Below, piece by piece: positions 19,600 through 27,047 of a stretch of 27,241 nt of DNA. The stretch is from a virus. The notes below the pieces were generated by a model, which had not been told where the DNA came from, ran no database searches, and saw only the letters and a program-made list of their open reading frames with translations. Position 1 is the first letter of the stretch, and each line of letters starts with the position of its first letter. The position numbers and the translations under genes were made by a program. The stretch is taken from positions 1-27,241 of IMG/VR virus record IMGVR_UViG_3300042521_002517; one strand, 5' to 3'.

Positions 19600-20153
19600 A
19601 TAATGTAATTCCATTGGCAGCAGGATATATCAAAGAGACAAGCCTCAACTTCAATGCAGAGAAGCTAGCATATGAAGCAAAAGAACTATATTCTGTATAT
19701 CAAAGAGACCAGATCAACCTAAGAAAACCTCATAATGTTGATGATATGCTGGGGATTACATATGGGTCGGGTAGCTTATATCAGAAGGGAGAAGTATTCG
19801 ATAATGATAAGAGCTGGAATGAATACATCTCAATCTTTAAAGACCTATACTTAGTAGAAGTACTAAAAGAGCTAGAAGAACATATGTGGTTCCAGCATAG
19901 AAGCTATATTGGTAGAGCAAGACTAATGAGAATGAAACCAAAGACATGCCTGACATATCATAGAGATGATAGCAGTATGAGATTACATATTCCTATCATT
20001 ACTAATGAAGGATGTTTCTTCATCAATAACGAGATAGTAGGTAAGATGCATAATGCAGGAAGACTTTACCTATATGATGTGAAGTCAAAGCATACAGCAG
20101 TCAATGCATCAAGAGAGGATAGAGTTCACCTAGTAGTTAACTGCTATGAGTGA
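19596..20153 (+). CDS. Aspartyl/asparaginyl beta-hydroxylase-like 2OG oxygenase, copy 2
   Basis: The 185-residue protein starts at the ATGA overlap at 19596 and, like copy 1, begins MNNVI. The core is RLMRMKPKTCLTYHRDDSS with His122 and Asp124, MRLHIPIITNEGCFF, and KHTAVNASREDRVHLVVNC with His166 and Arg176. It is shorter than copy 1 by the loss of a middle insert. All 11 arginines I counted are AGA, and CTA is the commonest Leu codon, whereas copy 1 uses AGG and TTA. It ends the operon; the non-coding repeat region follows immediately. Confidence 0.8.
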   Translation: MNNVIPLAAGYIKETSLNFNAEKLAYEAKELYSVYQRDQINLRKPHNVDDMLGITYGSGSLYQKGEVFDNDKSWNEYISIFKDLYLVEVLKELEEHMWFQHRSYIGRARLMRMKPKTCLTYHRDDSSMRLHIPIITNEGCFFINNEIVGKMHNAGRLYLYDVKSKHTAVNASREDRVHLVVNCYE

Positions 20154-20241
20154 TAAACTGTTTACCACTCCGTTACCACGATCTTTGCTAAACCTGTTTA
20201 CCTAACTTTAGTATATTCTTTTTACTAAACCGTTTACCTAT
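20152..20241. repeat. Three TAAAC(C)..GTTTACC dyad motifs at 36-bp phase
   Basis: GTTTACC occurs at 20160, 20196 and 20232, exactly 36 bp apart, each preceded by TAAAC or TAAACC so that AAAC and GTTT form a small dyad (GATAAACTGTTTACC, CTAAACCTGTTTACC, CTAAACCGTTTACC). The bases between the units are unrelated. The spacing is not a whole number of turns at 10.5 bp (about 3.4). They may be protein-binding iterons. Confidence 0.65.
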
Positions 20242-20349
20242 TATTTTACGTAGTGTAGTGCAATCACAAAATAATTAATTTTCTACTAGTTGTGCGGAGT
20301 TACGTTACCTAAGCCTAGTAGCATAATAGAGTTTCAACGGAGTTTCCTG

Positions 20350-20384
20350 CATTGTAGGATGAGATATTTTACATAGTAGGAAAT
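20350..20384. repeat. Dyad repeat CATTGTAGGA / ACATAGTAGGAAAT, first pair
   Basis: CATTGTAGGAT at 20350-20360 and ACATAGTAGGAAAT at 20371-20384 belong to the family that recurs at 20481-20526 and 20952-20965. TTTCCTGCATTGTAGGA forms a TCCT/AGGA dyad and TATTTTACATAGTAGGAAATA a TATTT/AAATA dyad. Confidence 0.6.
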
Positions 20385-20480
20385 ACGTTTAAATACGGGA
20401 TCCGGTGAGGTATTCCGAATGGTGCTGCGGGTATCAGATCACACACCAGTTCCCCTGCAGAAGTCAACAAAGACCAGCCA

Positions 20481-20526
20481 ATCATTTCCCACATTGTAGG
20501 AAATCATTTCCCGTATCGTAGGAAAC
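20481..20526. repeat. Tandem 22-bp dyad repeat around GTAGGAAA
   Basis: ATCATTTCCC plus ACATTGTAGGAA (20481-20502) is followed directly by ATCATTTCCC plus GTATCGTAGGAA (20503-20524). The units differ at three positions. Within each unit TTTCC and GGAAA are inverted around a nine-base centre, so each is a potential dimeric protein-binding site. A single further copy, ACATTGTAGGAAAT, lies at 20952-20965 just upstream of a promoter-like element. Confidence 0.72.
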
Positions 20527-20530
20527 TCCC

Positions 20531-20640
20531 GCTCCCCTGCGAGCCCCTGCGAGCCCCTGCGAGCCCCTGCGAGCCCCTGCGAGCCCCTGCGAGCCCCTGC
20601 GAGCCCCTGCGAGCCCCTGCGAGCCCCTGCGAGCCCCTGC
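20531..20640. repeat. Decamer minisatellite, GAGCCCCTGC x10
   Basis: Ten perfect consecutive copies of GAGCCCCTGC occupy 20541-20640; a degenerate copy (GCTCCCCTGC) precedes at 20531. The array is 80% G+C in an otherwise AT-rich stretch. The period is 10 bp, close to one helical turn, so every copy faces the same side of the DNA. Single CCCCTGC motifs surround it (20453, 20652) and recur at 26.19-26.23 kb. Translating the minus strand gives a 10-residue repeat, which I consider an artefact. Confidence 0.97.
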
Positions 20641-20729
20641 GAGTGCAGCAGCCCCCTGCAATAGTCTGAGTGCATCTGGTCTCCCTGCTGATGCATTGAA
20701 CGAATCGGTGATTGTGATACTAATTTGCA

Positions 20730-20759
20730 GACCAAGTCAACAGAGACCAGGTCAACAGT
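20730..20759. repeat. 15-bp tandem repeat GACCARGTCAACAGW
   Basis: GACCAAGTCAACAGA (20730-20744) and GACCAGGTCAACAGT (20745-20759) are adjacent and differ at two positions. On the minus strand they read CTGTTGACCTGGTC, the same words (TTGACC, CTGGTC) that make up the promoter cassettes at 21.3-25.9 kb. No convincing -10 follows on the minus strand. Confidence 0.65.
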
Positions 20760-20794
20760 AAGCTCATTCTGCAGCTCGCTGAAAGACCATACTG

Positions 20795-20824
20795 TTGACA
20801 AGCTCATGCAAAGTATGGGATAAT
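20795..20824 (+). promoter_or_regulatory. Sigma70-type promoter in the non-coding region
   Basis: Perfect TTGACA (20795-20800), an 18-bp spacer and GATAAT (20819-20824). No gene starts within 190 bases downstream, so the transcript is either a long leader to the gene at 21028 or a non-coding RNA, possibly an origin primer transcript. Confidence 0.6.
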
Positions 20825-20825
20825 G

Positions 20826-20917
20826 AGTGGGGGACCGTTTGCGCGGAGTTGGCAGAGGTGCGCTCTCGCCGTCCATCCCCAGAGTGCCTGTTCGAACGCA
20901 TAGAGACATCATCTATG
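20826..20917 (+). ncRNA. Candidate structured RNA
   Basis: Downstream of the 20795 promoter, TGGGG and GAC near the 5' end can pair with GTC and CCCCA about 45 bases later; AGAG/CTCT forms an inner hairpin; and CATAGA (20899-20904) pairs perfectly with TCTATG (20912-20917). A palindromic GTTCGAAC lies between. The stretch is GC-rich and codes for nothing. It fits no tRNA cloverleaf. The call is tentative. Confidence 0.25.
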
Positions 20918-20972
20918 AAAAAAGAGACCAAGACAACAGACCACATATTCTACATTGTAGGAAATAAAAATG

Positions 20973-21001
20973 TTGACTTCTGTTTTGGTCTATGAGACAG
21001 T
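20973..21001 (+). promoter_or_regulatory. Divergent member of the promoter cassette family
   Basis: TTGACT (20973-20978), spacer with TTGGTCT, and a poor -10 (GACAGT, 20996-21001) followed by GGCC and GTTAAACAAAAGGA. The layout matches the cassettes downstream even though the -10 is weak. Confidence 0.5.
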
Positions 21002-21027
21002 GGCCATGTCGTTAAACAAAAGGACTA

Positions 21028-21162
21028 ATGATGAAGGCAATCTACAAAGGGACGGAGTACTACATAATCTCTGTGCTCGGCGAATTGATCGAGATCGCCC
21101 CTACCAAACACGGTGCAGGGTCGTTCCTTGCGCATAAAGACTTTATCACCATTGTGGAGTAA
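21028..21162 (+). CDS. Small hypothetical protein
   Basis: The 44-residue frame starts at ATG 21028 (or 21031) behind AAAGGA at 21018-21023. The product, MMKAIYKGTEYYIISVLGEL... FLAHKDFITIVE, looks like a tiny beta-rich domain. It is the first gene of the small-gene cluster and has the cassette leader GTTAAACAAAAGGA in front. No family is recognised. Confidence 0.6.
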   Translation: MMKAIYKGTEYYIISVLGELIEIAPTKHGAGSFLAHKDFITIVE

Positions 21163-21164
21163 CC

Positions 21165-21338
21165 ATGAAGCGAAGCGCTATCAAGACTGGCATTTGGGGC
21201 GGCTTTGCCGCATGGGTAGGAGTGCAGACATACAGGCTGATCACGGCTGTTGTCTTGTTCATCCAATTGGTGTTCGGACTCTCTCTTGGTCTTGCATCGC
21301 TCTGGATTGCCGTACACTACAATCTAATACCCAACTGA
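21165..21338 (+). CDS. Small single-pass membrane protein
   Basis: The 57-residue frame starts two bases after the previous stop. A basic N terminus (MKRSAIK) and a hydrophobic stretch from about residue 26 to 51 (ITAVVLFIQLVFGLSLGLAS...) indicate one or two membrane passes. Small membrane proteins of early phage clusters can act in superinfection exclusion or lysis control; nothing more specific can be said. Its stop TGA is followed by the next cassette promoter after one base. Confidence 0.6.
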   Translation: MKRSAIKTGIWGGFAAWVGVQTYRLITAVVLFIQLVFGLSLGLASLWIAVHYNLIPN

Positions 21339-21339
21339 G

Positions 21340-21368
21340 TTGACCTGATATTTGGTCTGTGCTATACT
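21340..21368 (+). promoter_or_regulatory. Cassette promoter 1 (sigma70-type)
   Basis: TTGACC (21340-21345), 17-bp spacer containing TTGGTCT, and TATACT (21363-21368). The -35 begins one base after the upstream TGA. No dyad is present in this copy. Confidence 0.85.
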
Positions 21369-21395
21369 GACTTCACTGTTCAAATGGAGTTCCAA

Positions 21396-21767
21396 ATGAA
21401 AGTGTTCGTGTACTTCAACTTGCACAAGAAGTGCTGGTCTGTCAAAGCTCTCGAGGGTCCCCGCAAGGGCCGTGTGGTCCAGCATGCGAAGACTATCGCA
21501 CTGCATAACGTCACATTCAAGGTGTCCGAGGCTGGACGTCAACGAGTGCTGCGGGAGAAGAAGAAGAATGTGCATGCAGGAGCTGTTGGCACGCTGGATG
21601 TGTACTCATATGAGCCCTGGTTGGGATTGCAGGGTTCTGTTCACGATCTCACCAAGGTATCGTACAATCCCTATAAGGCAGGACACTTCGTTAACAAAGA
21701 GACGAATGAGCCTGTCCACACCGCGCAGTATGCGTATCTCGTTGACAAATCCGTAATGGTGAAATAA
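21396..21767 (+). CDS. Conserved-type phage hypothetical protein
   Basis: The 123-residue protein starts at ATG 21396, six bases after GGAG; an ATG at 21384 lacks a ribosome site. It reads VFVYFNLHKKCWSVKALEGP...GRVVQHA, ALHNVTFKVSEAGRQRVLREKKKNVHAG, then VGTLDVYS and YNPYKAGHFVNKETNEPVHTAQYAYL. I recall this layout from small proteins of diverse phages without an assigned role. The arrangement of basic helix after a beta segment suggests nucleic-acid contact. It is transcribed from cassette promoter 1 and abuts the next gene. Confidence 0.8.
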   Translation: MKVFVYFNLHKKCWSVKALEGPRKGRVVQHAKTIALHNVTFKVSEAGRQRVLREKKKNVHAGAVGTLDVYSYEPWLGLQGSVHDLTKVSYNPYKAGHFVNKETNEPVHTAQYAYLVDKSVMVK

Positions 21768-22175
21768 ATGTTCGATTCCACTCGCTTCGCAAGCTACAAC
21801 GACTACAACGACTATCTCACCCGCAAGCTCGCTCATTACAATGAGTGGCTGGGCGATCCCAAGCGGACGTTCAAGAATGGTCCCTACCCAGGGTTCCCGG
21901 AGGACCTCGAGCACGCAGCTCGCATCCAGTCCTTCAAGAAGGCAGCTGCTCAGGAGTTCGAGAAGAAGGCGAACCCTCCCATTGAGCGCAAGAAGAAGTC
22001 AAAGAAGGCAAAGAAGACAGCCGATGGTGGCCCTACCAAGCAAGAGCGTGCTGTTGACATTTTCAAGCGTTTGAGTGGGGAGAAGGCTGCGACCATTCAA
22101 GCAATCCAGGATGAGCTTGGTATGTCGCTCGCTGGTGCCACCACATACTTCTACAATGCAAAGAAGTTGGTCTGA
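21768..22175 (+). CDS. Lys-rich protein with a GATTYFYNAKK C-terminal module
   Basis: The 135-residue protein has an N-terminal helical part rich in Tyr and Asp (ASYNDYNDYLTRKLAHYNEWL), a strongly basic linker (ERKKKSKKAKKT, residues 73-84), and a C-terminal module (about 92-135) reading RAVDIFKRL...TIQAIQDELGMSLAGATTYFYNAKK. The same module ends the protein at 24121-24429. Its helix, turn, helix pattern with a Lys-rich arm looks like a DNA-binding domain joined to a histone-like tail. It starts directly after the previous stop and shares promoter 1. Confidence 0.8.
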   Translation: MFDSTRFASYNDYNDYLTRKLAHYNEWLGDPKRTFKNGPYPGFPEDLEHAARIQSFKKAAAQEFEKKANPPIERKKKSKKAKKTADGGPTKQERAVDIFKRLSGEKAATIQAIQDELGMSLAGATTYFYNAKKLV

Positions 22176-22176
22176 G

Positions 22177-22216
22177 TTGACCTAAGGTCTGGTCTGTTGT
22201 AATATGGCCAGACCTT
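22177..22216 (+). promoter_or_regulatory. Cassette promoter 2 with 9-bp dyad around the -10
   Basis: TTGACC (22177-22182), 17-bp spacer and TAATAT (22200-22205). AAGGTCTGG (22184-22192) and CCAGACCTT (22208-22216) are perfect inverted arms that flank the -10 box. Confidence 0.9.
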
Positions 22217-22231
22217 AACAAGGAGATAGAG

Positions 22232-22537
22232 ATGTCAGTTCAAATCAAATCTGTTATTCGTCCTACTCAACTCGTTCGCAATGTAATGTACAAACATGGA
22301 AACGCTCTTGTGTTCACTAATAAGTATCCCACCTGTAGGACTGTCAAGTGTTATTTTGATCCCAAAGTAGGTGCAGAGGAACTCAAATCAGACATCACAA
22401 CAGTTCTACAAACAGCAGGTGTACAAGAGTTCAAAATCAAAACTCTAAAGTACACGGATCCATTTCTCTTGGGTCGTATGTGTCACACTTTTCATTCTCT
22501 CATTGTAAGAATCCCTTTCTCGGAACAAGCTCAATAA
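22232..22537 (+). CDS. Small hypothetical protein
   Basis: The 101-residue protein follows AAGGAG with spacing typical of the cluster. It reads as alternating strands and helices (LVRNVMYKHGNALVFTNKYP, VGAEELKSDITTVLQTAGV, then KIKTLKYTDPFLLG, HSLIVRIPF), a ferredoxin-like pattern. No family is recognised. It has AT-richer codons than its downstream neighbours. It has its own cassette promoter. Confidence 0.75.
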   Translation: MSVQIKSVIRPTQLVRNVMYKHGNALVFTNKYPTCRTVKCYFDPKVGAEELKSDITTVLQTAGVQEFKIKTLKYTDPFLLGRMCHTFHSLIVRIPFSEQAQ

Positions 22538-22545
22538 ACAAATAG

Positions 22546-22585
22546 TTGACCTAAGGTCTGGTCTATAGTAATATGGCCAGACCTT
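22546..22585 (+). promoter_or_regulatory. Cassette promoter 3 with 9-bp dyad around the -10
   Basis: TTGACC (22546-22551), 17-bp spacer and TAATAT (22569-22574). Arms AAGGTCTGG (22553-22561) and CCAGACCTT (22577-22585). Nearly identical to cassette promoter 2, including the leader AAGGAGATAGAGATG, which suggests recent duplication. Confidence 0.9.
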
Positions 22586-22600
22586 ATCAAGGAGATAGAG

Positions 22601-22828
22601 ATGTACGTTCAAGTCTACATTCCTACTGTGATTCTCGAGATGGTTGAAGAGGCCTTTGAAGGGCTCTTTGGCCGCAGGCCAACCACAAAGGAGCTGCGGG
22701 ACTTCTTCGCAGCAGACGTAGCAACACTGTACGATCAAGGCATTCACGAAGCTCCTACAAACGAGCTCGAGGACTCCCTGCACCACTTCTTCTATCACCA
22801 ATTCAACACTCCTCCGGAGGCTGCATAA
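22601..22828 (+). CDS. Small acidic hypothetical protein
   Basis: The 75-residue protein is mostly helical and acidic (ILEMVEEAFEGLFGRRPTTK, ELRDFFAADVATLYDQGI). It starts like its neighbour 22232 with a leader duplicated from cassette 2. No family is recognised. Its stop overlaps the next start by one base (TAATG). Confidence 0.72.
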   Translation: MYVQVYIPTVILEMVEEAFEGLFGRRPTTKELRDFFAADVATLYDQGIHEAPTNELEDSLHHFFYHQFNTPPEAA

Positions 22829-22965
22829 TGAGCTGGGCACGCAAGATGGCTGACAAGCGGAAGATCAATCGTGTATTGGTCCGCTGCAAGAATGTCCGAC
22901 ACAATGACAAGCGTACTAAGGTCATGGAGCGTGAGCTCCGCAAAGAAGAGCGAGGTGTAGCATGA
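22828..22965 (+). CDS. Small very basic protein
   Basis: The 45-residue frame starts on the last base of the previous stop and ends in an ATGA overlap with the next gene, which supports it as real. Of 45 residues about 19 are Lys, Arg or His (MSWARKMADKRKINRVLVRC ... KRTKVMERELRKEERG). It probably binds nucleic acid; no family is recognised. Confidence 0.6.
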   Translation: MSWARKMADKRKINRVLVRCKNVRHNDKRTKVMERELRKEERGVA

Positions 22966-23123
22966 GCCGTGCGAAAGAACTCCTGGAAGACATCAAAGAA
23001 GACATCCGTGATGGGTTCCTCTCTGACAAAGCCATCGCACGGAAGTATGATGTGCCTATTGAGTGGGTGTACATTGCGTGGGACCAGCTCTGTCAAGAAG
23101 AACATAATCGTGAGTTGACCTGA
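22962..23123 (+). CDS. Small helix-turn-helix protein
   Basis: The 53-residue protein contains IKEDIRDGFLSDKAIARKYD followed by VPIEWVYIAWDQL, a clean homeodomain-like helix-turn-helix: helix, DKAIARKYDVP turn, recognition helix. It could be a transcription regulator or a small DNA-binding adaptor. Its last codons (Leu-Thr) are encoded by the TTGACC of the next cassette promoter, so the coding and promoter sequences overlap. Confidence 0.68.
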   Translation: MSRAKELLEDIKEDIRDGFLSDKAIARKYDVPIEWVYIAWDQLCQEEHNRELT

Positions 23124-23143
23124 TACCTGGTCTATAGTATGAT
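23115..23143 (+). promoter_or_regulatory. Cassette promoter 4
   Basis: TTGACC (23115-23120), 17-bp spacer containing CTGGTCT, and TATGAT (23138-23143) followed by GGCCTCACGTTAAACAAAGGAG split over the leader. No dyad. Confidence 0.85.
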
Positions 23144-23171
23144 GGCCTCACGTTAAACAAAGGAGTTAGTG

Positions 23172-23402
23172 ATGAGCCAAGCACAGTTCTTCTACGAAGT
23201 CGATCGGGAGCAAGCAGAGATAGAAGATGTCAACGCCGAGCTGCATATCCTTGCAGACGAAGTGCAGCAGGAAGTAATCGAAGAGCAGTTCCGTCGGTTC
23301 CTGCAGGAAGTATTCGGAGCTCTCTACGAGGAGATCGATCTGGGTTGTGAGTTCGACCTCATCCAGGATATGGAAGCTGGTTGGGATCTTCATAAGGCCT
23401 GA
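23172..23402 (+). CDS. Small very acidic helical protein
   Basis: The 76-residue protein starts at ATG 23172, six bases after AAGGAG. It is almost entirely helical with many Glu and Asp (VDREQAEIEDVNAELHILAD, EVQQEVIEEQFRRFLQEVFG). Such acidic small phage proteins sometimes mimic DNA and inhibit host DNA-binding enzymes, which is a possibility rather than a finding. No family is recognised. Confidence 0.72.
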   Translation: MSQAQFFYEVDREQAEIEDVNAELHILADEVQQEVIEEQFRRFLQEVFGALYEEIDLGCEFDLIQDMEAGWDLHKA

Positions 23403-23403
23403 G

Positions 23404-23438
23404 TTGACCAAAGGGCTGGTCTCAAGTAGGCTGGCCCT
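23404..23438 (+). promoter_or_regulatory. Cassette promoter 5 with short dyad
   Basis: TTGACC (23404-23409), 17-bp spacer and a weak -10 TAGGCT (23427-23432). AGGGC (23412-23416) and GCCCT (23434-23438) are inverted around it. It starts one base after the upstream TGA. Confidence 0.72.
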
Positions 23439-23460
23439 ACTTTAACAGACGGAGAACGAA

Positions 23461-23649
23461 ATGGACAAAGATTTATTCCGCAAAGATCCCAGAGACTTTG
23501 CATTGGGTCTTGTAAACAACGGGCTTATCTCTGCAGAGAGTTTGCTCACTGCGGCACTGGTGTACATGAGCACTGATGAGGTGCGTGATATGCTGGACAG
23601 CAACGAACTCAGCCCACGCTTCTCAGAAGATGATGAAGTTGAAGTTTAA
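23461..23649 (+). CDS. Small acidic hypothetical protein
   Basis: The 62-residue protein follows GGAGAACGAA. It reads DPRDFALGLVNNGLISAESLLTAALVYMSTDEVRDMLDSNEL, two or three helices in a compact domain, and ends acidic (SEDDEVEV). No family is recognised. It is followed by AGGAG for the next gene with no separate promoter. Confidence 0.72.
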   Translation: MDKDLFRKDPRDFALGLVNNGLISAESLLTAALVYMSTDEVRDMLDSNELSPRFSEDDEVEV

Positions 23650-23661
23650 CAGGAGATGGTA

Positions 23662-24063
23662 ATGAAAGCTGGAACGTACTACATTGGTGACCTCTGCTAT
23701 GTGTTCAACATGGACGACTGGAATGATGTGTGCAACATCACGATGGATGGACGCGAGGGTGAGTTTGAGCTGCCAGATGGTCGCAAGTTCGCACTCTACA
23801 ACACTGCATATGGTGACGGAGAGTACAACGACCAGTTTGGCAACAAATACCCTGTCGACTCTGGCACCATCGGATGTGTGTTGTGGAAAGACACTTCTCG
23901 CTATGAGTACATCCTTACTGATGTGGGTGCTGTTGTTGACATGAAAGAGGATTTCGATACCTGCTCGGATGGGAACGGTCTCATCAAAATTGGCAGTACG
24001 ACCATCGATACTGCTGAGGAATGGCTCGATCAGTACGATGAAGAGAATGAAGAATGGAGTTGA
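23662..24063 (+). CDS. Conserved-type phage hypothetical protein (YYIGDLCYV family)
   Basis: The 133-residue protein starts at ATG 23662, six bases after AGGAG; an ATG at 23656 overlaps that ribosome site. The layout GTYYIGDLCYVF, EFELPDGRKFALYNTAYGDG, YPVDSGTIGCVLWKD is one I recall from many phages and some bacteria, always without a known function. It appears to be a beta-rich fold; the DxC and YGDGxY motifs are its most conserved parts. Its stop TGA is inside TTGACC of the next promoter. Confidence 0.82.
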   Translation: MKAGTYYIGDLCYVFNMDDWNDVCNITMDGREGEFELPDGRKFALYNTAYGDGEYNDQFGNKYPVDSGTIGCVLWKDTSRYEYILTDVGAVVDMKEDFDTCSDGNGLIKIGSTTIDTAEEWLDQYDEENEEWS

Positions 24064-24088
24064 CCTGAAATCTGGTCTGTGCTATAGT
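24060..24088 (+). promoter_or_regulatory. Cassette promoter 6
   Basis: TTGACC (24060-24065), 17-bp spacer containing CTGGTCT, and TATAGT (24083-24088) followed by GGCCTCACGTTAATCA. The -35 contains the stop codon of the upstream gene. No dyad. Confidence 0.87.
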
Positions 24089-24120
24089 GGCCTCACGTTA
24101 ATCAATTAAAGGAGTTTCAA

Positions 24121-24429
24121 ATGAACCAAGTCTTCTCAATGCTCACCCAGTCCCTCATCGATGGCAAAGATGCTGCTGCTGCAGCGGTTGCTCCTGCAAA
24201 GAAGAAAGCTGTCCGGGCTAAGCCTGCAGCGAAGAAGGATCTTGCAGAGCAGGTGGTCGAAGTAGTAAAGCTAAAGGCTCGTCCAGGTACGAAGGCTGAT
24301 CTCGCCCTGGAGATCGTGCAGAAGGCTGCTAGCCGCAAAGAAGCGATCGCTGAGATCATGGATGTGTGTGGTATGACGGTGCAGGGAGCAACGACGTACT
24401 ACTACAATGCAAAGAAGAAGCTGGCCTAA
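24121..24429 (+). CDS. Ala/Lys-rich histone-like protein with a GATTYYYNAKK module
   Basis: The 102-residue protein has a short helical start, an Ala/Lys/Pro-rich segment (AAAAVAPAKKKAVRAKPAAK, about residues 19-38) like histone H1 or AlgP tails, and a C-terminal module (about 58-101) reading LALEIVQKAASRKEAIAEIM then CGMTVQGATTYYYNAKKK. The module is shared with the protein at 21768-22175. It may condense or mark DNA, or act in transcription; that is inference from composition. It is expressed from cassette promoter 6 alone. Confidence 0.82.
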   Translation: MNQVFSMLTQSLIDGKDAAAAAVAPAKKKAVRAKPAAKKDLAEQVVEVVKLKARPGTKADLALEIVQKAASRKEAIAEIMDVCGMTVQGATTYYYNAKKKLA

Positions 24430-24430
24430 G

Positions 24431-24465
24431 TTGACAACAAGGCTGGCCTGTTGTAGGCTGGCCTT
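24431..24465 (+). promoter_or_regulatory. Cassette promoter 7 with imperfect 10-bp dyad
   Basis: TTGACA (24431-24436), 17-bp spacer and weak -10 TAGGCT (24454-24459). AAGGCTGGCC (24439-24448) and GGCTGGCCTT (24456-24465) are inverted at 8 of 10 positions. Confidence 0.7.
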
Positions 24466-24488
24466 TCATTCATCATAAGGAGTATACC

Positions 24489-24791
24489 ATGTTCGCAATG
24501 CCTAACACTCGTCAAGTTCGTCAAATTATTCGTGATGCAGCCCGTGATGTCGGTGTCACGTTTGAGCGTCATTCGTGGACAGACAAAGTGGATGTTGAGA
24601 ATCCGAAGCTGCGTCAGGTCTGCTTGAGTCCTCTCTATCTGGGACCTGAGCCTCACAGCAAGTATGACGAGCTGATCAACATCATCCGCAATCGTCTTGC
24701 TCAACACAACCTCCTCATCATTCAAGGGTTGTCTGATCATCTCTATGTTCGGTTCTATGGCGAGATCGCCCCTCGCAAAAAGAAGGCCTGA
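24489..24791 (+). CDS. Small hypothetical protein
   Basis: The 100-residue protein follows ATAAGGAG. It begins with a basic helix (NTRQVRQIIRDAARDVGVTF), then a loop and a second helical part (KYDELINIIRNRLAQHNLLI), a strand (LYVRFYG) and a basic tail (APRKKKA). The shape is compatible with a small nucleic-acid-binding fold. No family is recognised. Confidence 0.75.
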   Translation: MFAMPNTRQVRQIIRDAARDVGVTFERHSWTDKVDVENPKLRQVCLSPLYLGPEPHSKYDELINIIRNRLAQHNLLIIQGLSDHLYVRFYGEIAPRKKKA

Positions 24792-24797
24792 CCTGAG

Positions 24798-24834
24798 TTG
24801 ACCGTGAGGCTGGTCTATGGTATACTGGCCTCAC
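24798..24834 (+). promoter_or_regulatory. Cassette promoter 8 with 7-bp dyad
   Basis: TTGACC (24798-24803), 17-bp spacer with CTGGTCT, and TATACT (24821-24826). GTGAGGC (24804-24810) and GCCTCAC (24828-24834) are perfect inverted arms around the -10. Confidence 0.9.
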
Positions 24835-24854
24835 GTTAAACAAAGGAGTTAGTG

Positions 24855-25052
24855 ATGTACATCAACCTTCAGCCGAGCAAGACCTACAAGACCCGCGAGA
24901 ACGCCATCAAGGCAGCGATGACGCAGGTCTGCAGCAAGCGTGACGATCTCCGGTTCATCATCAGCATCACGGAAGACGGTCGCTTCTTCCCAGTGTTCCT
25001 CGGTGTCAATGCTCTGCCGGTGATCCACATCGGATTCTGCGTAGCAGCCTAA
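24855..25052 (+). CDS. Small hypothetical protein
   Basis: The 65-residue protein starts at ATG 24855, six bases after AAGGAG. It reads KTYKTRENAIKAAMTQV and DDLRFIISITEDGRFFPVFLG, a helix followed by two strands, and ends hydrophobic (PVIHIGFCVAA). The strand pair around TEDGRFFPV is typical of small phage beta-hairpin proteins. No family is recognised. Confidence 0.72.
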   Translation: MYINLQPSKTYKTRENAIKAAMTQVCSKRDDLRFIISITEDGRFFPVFLGVNALPVIHIGFCVAA

Positions 25053-25055
25053 GAG

Positions 25056-25090
25056 TTGACGAGGCCAGTGTTCTGAGGGATACTGGCCTC
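25056..25090 (+). promoter_or_regulatory. Cassette promoter 9 with 9-bp dyad
   Basis: TTGACG (25056-25061), 17-bp spacer and GATACT (25079-25084). GAGGCCAGT (25061-25069) and ACTGGCCTC (25082-25090) are perfect inverted arms; the right one overlaps the -10. Confidence 0.82.
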
Positions 25091-25112
25091 ACTGTTAAAC
25101 AAGGAGCTAATA

Positions 25113-25352
25113 ATGAGTGCAAACGAGATCAAAGTCTACGGCATGTCGGTCGAGCGCATCCAGGAAGAGTATGTCAACAGCATCACGGCTCAGTGCTGCG
25201 GCCTGGAGATGGTCGTAGCTGGCATCCTGAGCGATGTGCAAGAGGTTGTGTCGTTTGACCATGTCAGGCCCGAGCAAATCCGTCAGCAGCTGAACATCGC
25301 TAAGTACCTCCTTACGCTGCTGGCTCGGCAGCGTCGTGAGCAGGTAGCATGA
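25113..25352 (+). CDS. Small helical hypothetical protein
   Basis: The 79-residue protein follows AAGGAGCTAATA. It is mainly helical (VERIQEEYVNSITAQCCGLE, QIRQQLNIAKYLLTLLARQR). No family is recognised. It is coupled to the next gene by an ATGA overlap. Confidence 0.72.
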   Translation: MSANEIKVYGMSVERIQEEYVNSITAQCCGLEMVVAGILSDVQEVVSFDHVRPEQIRQQLNIAKYLLTLLARQRREQVA

Positions 25353-25534
25353 AGTACTCAGAGATGTCCTTCGTCGCCTTCCTGCAGGCGGCGGAGGATT
25401 ACGCAGAAGCAGAGGGAGCGCTGGCGGAGTTCACGACTGCGTACCAGTACTACAGGGTGTACTGCAGTGTAAAGGACAGCACACTGCTTGCCCTCAATGA
25501 TGTGTTCGGCAGAGAATGTCCTCTCATTCATTAA
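25349..25534 (+). CDS. Small hypothetical protein
   Basis: The 61-residue protein starts at the ATGA overlap. It is helical at the N terminus (FVAFLQAAEDYAEAEGALAE) followed by Tyr-rich segments (YQYYRVYC). No family is recognised. It ends ten bases before the next start, with AAGGAG right after the stop. Confidence 0.65.
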   Translation: MKYSEMSFVAFLQAAEDYAEAEGALAEFTTAYQYYRVYCSVKDSTLLALNDVFGRECPLIH

Positions 25535-25544
25535 GGAGTTCAAC

Positions 25545-25907
25545 ATGAGTACTCGTTCATTCATCGGCATGGCTAAGAGCAATGGCGAACTGATCGGCAA
25601 CTACTGTCACTATGATGGCTATCCCGAGCACGTCGGTGTGGCGCTTGTTACGTACTACAGCACCGCTGAGCATGCCATCGCTCTGATCGGTGGTCCGCGG
25701 ATCCGCTGCATTGGGCCCGACGGCGAAGTCGAGCGCTTCAAGGACAGCGATATTGGCACGGAGACATTTGAGAGTGTGAATGAGGTACTCAACAGCGGCT
25801 ACGATTACTGCTACCTCTTCTCTAAGGAGGAGCAGCGCTGGACGTGTTTCGGTCGGGATTATGGCCCCTACGCATCCATCATCGTCTCCAAAGAGATCCC
25901 GGGTTGA
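25545..25907 (+). CDS. Conserved-type phage hypothetical protein (CHYDGYPEHVG family)
   Basis: The 120-residue protein starts at ATG 25545, six bases after AAGGAG. It reads RSFIGMAKSNGELIGNYCHY, DGYPEHVGVALVTYYS, AIALIGGPRIRCIGPDGEVE, then a Tyr/Trp-rich end (DYCYLFSKEEQRWTCF). I recall the CxYDGYPxHxG motif from many phage and bacterial proteins without a known role. It looks like a beta-sandwich with a conserved Asp/His cluster. Its stop TGA is inside TTGACC of the next promoter. Confidence 0.82.
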   Translation: MSTRSFIGMAKSNGELIGNYCHYDGYPEHVGVALVTYYSTAEHAIALIGGPRIRCIGPDGEVERFKDSDIGTETFESVNEVLNSGYDYCYLFSKEEQRWTCFGRDYGPYASIIVSKEIPG

Positions 25908-25932
25908 CCTGTTACCTGGTCTAGGGGATACT
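25904..25932 (+). promoter_or_regulatory. Cassette promoter 10
   Basis: TTGACC (25904-25909), 17-bp spacer containing CTGGTCT, and GATACT (25927-25932). No GGCC downstream and no clear dyad. The -35 contains the upstream stop codon. Confidence 0.8.
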
Positions 25933-25961
25933 CTCCCTACTGTCAAATAAAGGAGCTGATC

Positions 25962-26177
25962 ATGCAACAACAGAGCTGGGTGAAAGATGGCGAGCGTATC
26001 CGTGGGAACTATCATGGGAATGTTGTGGAGGGTGTTGTGCATGACAGCCGAGTAAAGTACGGCGGCATGGTACAGTACAGAGTCATGCTTGACAACACTG
26101 TTCGCCTGCCATGGCGCTCTGAGCCAGTCAGCGTAGTCTTGCTGGACGAGAGCGAAGTGCTCCCCAGCGAAGTCTGA
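25962..26177 (+). CDS. Small beta-rich hypothetical protein
   Basis: The 71-residue protein follows AAAGGAGCTGATC. It has WVKDGERIRGNYHGNVVEGV and VQYRVMLDNTVRLPWRSEPV, the strand pattern of an SH3-like or Tudor-like barrel, then an acidic end. Such folds in phages often bind DNA or a partner protein. It is the last gene of the small-gene cluster; palindromes follow. Confidence 0.72.
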   Translation: MQQQSWVKDGERIRGNYHGNVVEGVVHDSRVKYGGMVQYRVMLDNTVRLPWRSEPVSVVLLDESEVLPSEV

Positions 26178-26393
26178 GTGCTCGCAGGGGCCCCTGCGGC
26201 CCCCTGCAGAGTCGTACTGCTCCCCTGCATACCGCCGGGGGCCCGCCTTTTTTAACGCGCAGGTACCCGTACCCGGGTTCCAGTACTTGGCCGTGTGTTC
26301 TCAAAGGGGCCCCCGCCTTGTTTTATCCGAATCTGAAAAAAGTCGTCTCAAAAAATTTTTTTGGCAAAAAATCGCGAAAAGGAGCGTCTACAA
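26178..26393. other. GC-rich palindromes and terminator-like elements
   Basis: CGCAGGGG (26183-26190) and CCCCTGCG (26191-26198) form a perfect 16-bp palindrome with no spacer. CCCCTGC recurs at 26201-26210 and 26221-26228, the core of the decamer repeat at 20.5 kb. CGGGGGCCCGCC followed by six T (26236-26253) and GGGGCCCC followed by CGCCTTGTTTT (26306-26324) look like terminator remnants with short stems. An A-rich leader then leads to AAAAGGAG at 26377. This closes the small-gene cluster. Confidence 0.6.
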
Positions 26394-27047
26394 ATGATCT
26401 GGGCTATCCGAATTACATTCTTCTTATTGGCGCCTCTTATCCTCTATTGGCAGTATAGAGACGTGCAGAATCTTTTTGCGAGTGTAGAGGCACTCTATGA
26501 GAATCAGATTGTTATCGTACAGGGACAGTTAGCGATTACATCAGATATCAAGGAGTTGCGAGCAGAAGTATTGCAGCAACCAGTGCCGTCAGTGCCATCG
26601 GCGCCTGCACCTAGTATTAAGCCTCCTTTGCAAGTGATCCGTACAGATTATCAATTGAAGCATGACCCGCTTGACATCTTCTGTATGGCAAAGAACATAT
26701 ATCATGAAGCTGCACATGAGCCTGAGATCGGTCGCTATGCAGTTGCGCAGGTAACACTTAACCGCAAAATGAATCCTAAGTATCCAAAGAAGATTTGTGA
26801 TGTGATCCTGGATCCATATCAGTTTAGTTGGGCAAACGATAAGAAGATTCGCTGGACTAATCCTAAAGGTCCTGCATGGGAGGAATCCAAGCGTATTGCA
26901 TATAATGTAGTAGTAGAGGGGTATAGAGTGAAAGGACTAGAGCATGGCCTCTTCTATCATGCAGATTATGTCAGTCCTAAATGGCGCGATAACAATGCTC
27001 ATATCACTCAGATCGGTAGACATATCTTCTATAGCCGGGCACTTTAA
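26394..27047 (+). CDS. Membrane-anchored cell-wall hydrolase (SleB/Hydrolase_2 family)
   Basis: The 217-residue protein starts at ATG 26394, nine bases after AAAAGGAG; a TTG at 26361 upstream is less likely. An N-terminal membrane segment (IRITFFLLAPLILYW, residues 5-19) is followed by a Pro-rich linker and the SleB-type domain from about residue 92: IFCMAKNIYHEAAHEP with Glu105, RYAVAQVTLNR, YPKKICDVI, YQFSWAND, GLFYHADYV. These are landmarks of peptidoglycan lytic transglycosylase or amidase-type hydrolases. A membrane anchor without cleavage site suggests a signal-arrest endolysin or an envelope-localised enzyme. It overlaps the sulfatase start by one base. Confidence 0.9.
   Translation: MIWAIRITFFLLAPLILYWQYRDVQNLFASVEALYENQIVIVQGQLAITSDIKELRAEVLQQPVPSVPSAPAPSIKPPLQVIRTDYQLKHDPLDIFCMAKNIYHEAAHEPEIGRYAVAQVTLNRKMNPKYPKKICDVILDPYQFSWANDKKIRWTNPKGPAWEESKRIAYNVVVEGYRVKGLEHGLFYHADYVSPKWRDNNAHITQIGRHIFYSRAL

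Follow-up and report, generated by a model that had tools for sequence, protein, structure and literature searches.

The window analyzed here is the whole 27.2-kb virus record IMGVR_UViG_3300042521_002517, which carries at positions 20973-25961 eleven copies of a sigma70-type promoter cassette, one per gap between short genes, six of which are overlaid by a potential hairpin (Table 1). A 33-base pattern (TTGAC-N7-YTGGYCT-N5-A-N3-TGGCC, with at most 3 mismatches) was found 11 times in the window, always inside the array, against a mean of 0.03 and a maximum of 1 match in 100 shuffles, in agreement with the number of copies reported in an earlier note made from the letters of this DNA alone. The overall layout given in that note was also recovered: TTGACC is followed by 17 bp in which CTGGTCT usually occurs, then by a −10 box, in most copies by GGCC, and by a leader that carries a Shine-Dalgarno sequence. 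Its elements were nevertheless less uniform than described: TTGACC was exact in 8 of the 11 copies (all but copies 1, 8, and 10), CTGGTCT was exact in seven, one base off in three, and replaced by GTGTTCT in copy 10, GGCC was present 3' of the −10 box in nine, and the AAGGAG leader was exact in eight.

All gaps leave little room: the end of the upstream stop codon lies anywhere from 8 bases before to 9 bases inside the −35 start, and the interval from this stop codon to the next ribosome-binding site, approximately 60 nt, holds the whole promoter. The six hairpin cassettes begin past the upstream stop codon, and the stop codon overlaps the −35 box in the hairpin-less copies 5, 7, and 11. The G+C content climbs from about 0.40 in the first 20 kb to about 0.50 at positions 20001-27000, at the start of the array.

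Complementary arms were found around the −10 box in copies 3, 4, 6, 8, 9, and 10, the six copies for which such inverted arms had been announced. RNA folding separated two classes, with six copies at −17 to −23 kcal/mol (z −3.4 to −7.0) and five copies at −4 to −7 kcal/mol. The exact complementarity between left and right halves averaged 5.9 bp for halves of the same cassette and 4.25 bp for halves of different cassettes (permutation p = 0.0001; p = 0.0013 when the duplicate copy 4 was left out). When true cassettes were compared to chimeric ones by RNA folding, own pairs reached −12.9 kcal/mol and cross-pairs −8.7 kcal/mol (p < 5e-5, no permutation being as extreme). The six hairpin copies are thus real, beyond chance.

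Table 1. Cassettes of the promoter array, each starting at the first base of its −35 box, and the gene that is missing in the sister contig L001.
Feature	Position	Strand	−35, spacer, −10	Leader	Arms (left / right)	Folding energy (kcal/mol), z	Remarks
Cassette 1	20973..21027	+	TTGACT-17-GACAGT	AAGGAC			No hairpin around −10
Cassette 2	21340..21395	+	TTGACC-17-TATACT	TGGAGT			No hairpin
Cassette 3	22177..22231	+	TTGACC-17-TAATAT	AAGGAG	22183-22194 / 22206-22217 (TAAGGTCTGGTC/GGCCAGACCTTA)	−19.7, z −5.9	
Cassette 4	22546..22600	+		AAGGAG	22552-22563 / 22575-22586	−20.7, z −7.0	Duplicate of cassette 3
Cassette 5	23115..23171	+	TTGACC-17-TATGAT	AAGGAG			Right side as cassette 9, left arm unmatched, no hairpin
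Cassette 6	23404..23460	+	TTGACC-17-TAGGCT	ACGGAG	23412-23422 / 23428-23438 (AGGGCTGGTCT/AGGCTGGCCCT)	−16.9, z −3.4	Three G.U pairs
Cassette 7	24060..24120	+	TTGACC-17-TATAGT	AAGGAG			No hairpin
Cassette 8	24431..24488	+	TTGACA-17-TAGGCT	AAGGAG	24439-24449 / 24455-24465 (AAGGCTGGCCT/AGGCTGGCCTT)		Loop GTTGT
Cassette 9	24798..24854	+	TTGACC-17-TATACT	AAGGAG	24803-24814 / 24824-24835 (CGTGAGGCTGGT/ACTGGCCTCACG)	−18.2, z −4.9	
Cassette 10	25056..25112	+	TTGACG-17-GATACT	AAGGAG	25061-25073 / 25078-25090 (GAGGCCAGTGTTC/GGATACTGGCCTC)	−23.2, z −5.6	CTGGTCT lost
Cassette 11	25904..25961	+	TTGACC-17-GATACT	AAGGAG			No hairpin around −10
62-codon gene	23461..23649	+					In the window, absent from L001

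The arms had also been described as differing between copies. Each arm indeed fits its own partner best, but half of these "different arms" are duplicates or users of one common right arm. Copies 3 and 4 arose by duplication of one cassette (92% identity over 72 nt). The right-hand sequence GGCCTCAC is common to copies 9 and 10 and occurs again in copies 5 and 7, where no left arm matches it. Copies 5 and 9 are identical over the 31 bases past the −10 box, and only in copy 9 is the left arm the reverse complement of this sequence. Copy 10 pairs in another register with nearly the same right side as copy 9, and the centre of symmetry lies 19.5, 21, or 23 nt from the −35 start, depending on the copy.

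The right arms end 34-40 bases from the −35 start, close to the expected transcription start. RNA made from the cassette's own promoter would thus lack the hairpin, and only read-through RNA could form it, which upholds the earlier deduction that the hairpin is restricted to read-through RNA or to DNA. A pair-by-pair layout of the six stems showed 11 non-Watson-Crick interior pairs, all of them G.U (G.T in DNA), with no A.C and no other mismatch; when the duplicate cassette and the shared CTGG/CTGG core were each counted once, about 6 G.U pairs were left (sign test, roughly 0.03). This bias is suggestive of sense-strand RNA and favours RNA over a cruciform. In addition, the sense strand folded better than the antisense strand in all hairpin copies of the window. 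The hairpins are therefore best read as structures of the sense RNA, in which G.T positions pair well, as they do not in DNA or in antisense RNA.

A hairpin that exists only in read-through RNA recalls the homing endonuclease genes of T4, in which an internal promoter starts inside a hairpin (PMC2988022). A gating of the I-TevI type, in which the ribosome-binding site is masked by the hairpin of long transcripts and hairpin-free messages come from the internal promoter, shares this geometry with the cassettes, but the ribosome-binding site lies outside the stems. The predicted accessibility of this site in read-through and promoter-initiated RNA was 0.29/0.33, 0.16/0.38, 0.59/0.44, 0.52/0.50, 0.48/0.56, and 0.43/0.35 for the six hairpin cassettes, without a consistent drop. 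Sequestration of the ribosome-binding site was thus not supported, and we consider a gating of this type extremely unlikely.

The anatomy of the six copies was compared to that of the promoter-early stem-loop (PeSL) cassettes, the original descriptions of which are said to be those of Arbiol et al. 2010 and Comeau et al. 2014, and whose stem-loops in phage RB49 reportedly have terminator activity. In the RB49 sequence, 24 of 45 promoter-like sites had a stem of at least 6 Watson-Crick pairs laid over the promoter. Eleven of these stems were inside the spacer (e.g., GGGGATC-GGT-GATCCCC and CGGGGA-GAAA-TCCCCG), and 13 lay across the −10 box (e.g., ATGGGAGTA/TACTCCCAT, ATGCGGT/ACCGCAT, GGGGGTA/TACCCCC, and GGGGGTA/TACTCCC with a G.U pair). 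Arm variants such as GGGAGT/ACTCCC, GGGGGT/ACTCCC, and GGGGGT/ACCCCC were found among them, and the chimera test gave p < 5e-5, the observed value being reached by no permutation. Comparison of orthologous promoters showed a loop in exact inversion (GGT/ACC) between RB49 and Phi1, and changed stems between RB49 and JSE. According to the citations in PMC4503421, PeSL cassettes were described in RB49 and Phi1, both of T4 type.

The cassettes of the window resemble those of RB49 in joining a sigma70-like promoter and a stem-loop in one small intergenic cassette repeated among small genes, in a stem-loop that overlaps the −35 and −10 boxes, in arms that vary by copy, in G.U intermediates, and in a loop inverted between orthologues. 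They differ by the absence of sequence homology to the RB49 cassettes, by the −35 box TTGACC and the CTGGTCT spacer motif, and by stems that are longer, extended by G.U pairs, and present on only 6 of 11 copies. The array is most likely a new example of the known PeSL-type layout, not a new mechanism: the layout is the same and the sequences are not.

The dyads could also be read as elements acting in DNA, either as a protein operator or as a cruciform or hairpin, driven by supercoiling, that exposes or hides the −10 box. The arms of the window cassettes do flank the −10 box, and the RB49 spacer palindromes have loops of 3-5 nt and nearly perfect pairing. Moreover, a GACC-N8-GGTC dyad with one half within the −35 box is common to 8 of the 11 copies and GGTC occurs near the −10 box in several related phages, so that some operator is plausible. 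However, the arms and their register vary by copy, which is not expected of an operator, and both the restriction of interior mismatches to G.T and the better folding of the sense strand in every hairpin copy point to RNA. Furthermore, the loops of copies 3 and 9 are of 9-11 nt, a length that is poor for cruciforms. Action of the dyads in DNA thus seems very unlikely.

The only close relative found was L001, the end of an 81.8-kb contig, which is 95-96% identical to the window over the array region; it was the sole other contig matched in an exact motif search of IMG/VR, and a near search of phage records with the whole array gave no match. L001 carries the same eleven cassettes plus a twelfth. 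Stems 3, 4, 6, and 9 are kept, the outermost pair of copy 10 is lost, and copy 8 is perfect. In the latter, AAGGCTGGCCT-GTTGT-AGGCTGGCCTT of the window corresponds to AAGGCTGGCCT-ACAAC-AGGCCAGCCTT in L001, that is, an exact inversion of the loop together with arms made perfect. The result (L001:5322-5356) is a perfect 11-bp palindrome in which the −10 box TAGGCT has become CAGGCC, with no recognisable −10 box left, and the hairpin is retained there while the promoter was probably lost. Fourteen nucleotides of cassette 8 in L001 are the reverse complement of the left arm and loop of the window, within a 20-nt match that explains 7 changes. Among the 24 mutation clusters that distinguish the window from L001 in 6.3 kb, only the one in cassette 8 is explained by copying of a nearby reverse complement.

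Polymerase template switching is known to leave such a mark, an inverted spacer between homogenised arms (PMC8604942), and has been shown both to generate hairpins and to preserve them (PMC8794818). The comparison with L001 indicates that the arms and loop of cassette 8 were remodelled in a single step, as in template switching, and the arms of the remaining cassettes may have the same origin. These two publications treat yeast genes and rRNA genes, and not the origin of promoter hairpins in phages. The earlier note had taken the paired change of the arms as an argument for selection on pairing. This was too strong, because a single template switch can alter a whole arm or invert a loop, as at cassette 8; the paired change observed here is at least partly a mutational product and, alone, is no proof of selection on pairing.

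It could then be proposed that template switching between short inverted repeats present by chance produced the hairpins as by-products. One arm would be copied onto the other, the arms would change together without selection on pairing, and only the promoter core would be under selection. Besides the exact loop inversion and arm homogenisation at cassette 8, by a mechanism that was already known, this proposal would account for a left arm of cassette 9 that is the reverse complement of a right side also found in the hairpin-less copies 5 and 7, for the three different registers among copies, and for the new left arm of cassette 10, which destroyed the spacer motif. By contrast, it does not readily explain why six hairpins of 11-13 bp are all located at promoters and in the same gap, why their interior mismatches are solely G.U on the sense strand, and why the stems survive 4-5% divergence. 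Retention is also suggested by RB49, where about half of the promoters have this layout. We regard hairpins that are by-products, without selection on pairing, as unlikely.

The 62-codon gene of Table 1 is also informative. The window and L001 join within the leader of cassette 6, at a direct repeat of 8 bp (TTTAACAG), and this position beside a cassette points to a gene gained or lost at a cassette (one case, two genomes). Gain and loss of genes at cassettes may be a further likeness to PeSL cassettes, again with one gene and two genomes in the case of the window. In addition, T4-type genes for the baseplate wedge and the tube cap are located on the contig of L001, and its wedge protein is closest to the proteins of Caulobacter phage Cr30 and Sinorhizobium phage phiM12. 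The array had been set apart from the promoter/stem-loop cassettes of T4-type phages as related but not identical. Given the same overlap at the early promoters of RB49 and the T4-type baseplate genes of L001, this distinction was not retained.

Two other repeated phage elements were considered. The extended start-associated sequences (ESAS) of cluster K mycobacteriophages are, like the arms described here, inverted repeats 5' of small non-structural genes, and about half of the repeated start-site motifs carry one (PMC3203893). Their arms follow one 17-bp consensus per genome and adjoin a 13-bp translation-start motif (PMC3203893), whereas the arms of the window vary by copy and overlap a sigma70 promoter, and no such start motif was found in the aligned cassettes. 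Cluster O mycobacteriophages contain more than 30 repeats of the 17-bp palindrome TGTTCGG-N3-CCGAACA, also within genes, with indels arising by recombination between copies (PMC4351075). The likeness lies in palindromes repeated in a phage genome, but the palindrome of cluster O is fixed and does not lie over a −10 box, whereas both the arms and the centre vary in the window.

More distant relatives were reached via the flanking proteins, and copy-specific arms were sought in their promoter sets, either near the −10 box or in the spacer. These phages have similar sigma70 promoter arrays, several of them with TTGACC and GGTC near the −10 box. Strong hairpins are almost absent from these relatives, and the hairpins of the window are thus not ancestral to that whole set. 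Palindromic −35/−10 spacers with differing arms were observed at L109:1073 and 2371 and at L097:1190 (minus strand), with the sequences CTTTTTCGAAAAAAG, CTTTTCTGAGAAAAG, and TGTTTCTCGGAAACA. They resemble the spacer class of RB49, but their copies are too few for significance, and the permutation tests were not significant. The covariation that had been expected in related genomes was found in part, without excess in the distant relatives but with a clear excess in RB49. Moreover, some orthologous promoters of RB49, Phi1, and JSE differ in their stems or in the orientation of a loop.

Taken together, these data lead us to favour, as a probable explanation of the whole, PeSL-type composite cassettes of a T4-superfamily phage that combine a promoter with a boundary hairpin for read-through RNA. 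The strong sigma70-type promoter of each cassette would start transcription of its own small gene. In six of the eleven, a stem-loop would overlap the promoter, the left arm lying in the −35/−10 spacer and the right arm ending close to the transcription start. Only RNA coming from upstream would fold the stem, just behind the upstream stop codon. The stem-loop would then act as a boundary by partial termination or by mRNA processing of the read-through transcript, and the promoter would restart the next gene. The promoters, the pairing on the sense strand, the copy-specific arms, and the same anatomy in RB49 can be read from the sequences, and from these we infer the action of the hairpin in read-through RNA and its effect there, as a terminator or a processing site. 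That the window elements are PeSL-type composite cassettes is, taken alone, quite likely; that the stem lowers read-through has a somewhat less than even chance.

Several observations weigh against this explanation. Copies 1, 2, 5, 7, and 11, i.e., 5 of 11, showed no hairpin on folding. No U-tract was found 3' of the six stems (0 to 4 T in the next 8 nt), and no intrinsic terminator was predicted at any of the eleven cassettes. The window stems lack the combination of a GC-rich stem and a T run that characterizes intrinsic terminators; most of the overlapping stems of RB49 are also without a U-tract. The cassette sequences of the window and RB49 are unrelated, which leaves a common descent with PeSL cassettes unsupported, and the T4-type genes sit on the contig of L001 and not inside the window. 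Beyond cassette 8, the comparison of the window with L001 showed no double compensatory change. Finally, the promoter sets of the distant relatives showed no consistent excess of copy-specific arms (lowest p 0.03, in one set of five) and almost no strong hairpins.

A broader proposal, which we put forward only tentatively, is that promoter-overlapping stem-loops might be a general device of the T4 superfamily, made or repaired by template switching, with arms whose sequence may vary as long as they pair. The palindrome that covers the −10 box would be made or perfected in one step and would be invisible to the cassette's own transcript. Each small gene would in this way receive a combined element to stop read-through and start anew.

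With regard to the surrounding genes, 21768-22175 and 24121-24429 are paralogous and share a predicted C-terminal three-helix domain with the sequence GMSxAGATTYFYNAKK. This domain is conserved in many uncultivated phages and, in L071, L073, and L074, is directly followed by a promoter with a TGG(T/C)CT spacer. The predicted domain gave no significant structural match, and no relative of the protein was found in prokaryote genomes. It is possible, as a guess, that this pair encodes the regulator of the array. The small proteins of the array mostly belong to no family. The gene at 21384-21767 is homologous to gp82 of mycobacteriophage L5 (PF25735), which belongs to a family without a known function that is spread among phages of very different hosts. 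Upstream of cassette 1, the region 20364-20966 contains at least three copies of a palindrome-like element (such as ATTTCCCACATTGTAGGAAAT) and several minus-strand copies of TTGAC(C/T)TGGTCT, and is possibly a regulatory or replication region. About eleven tandem copies of CCCCTGCGAG are located at 20530-20643, within a non-coding stretch (20400-20780) in place of which L001 has an unrelated sequence.

On the explanation that we favour, the array would extend the RB49-type cassette to an uncultivated and distant lineage whose baseplate genes are of T4 type and whose cassette sequence is unrelated. This suggests that it is the layout, a hairpin over the promoter that is visible only to read-through RNA, rather than the sequence, that is retained. 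The apparent "covariation" around a promoter that arose from one replication error is a caution against taking paired changes as proof of a selected structure, and the array offers an easily testable model for how promoter/stem-loop cassettes may arise.

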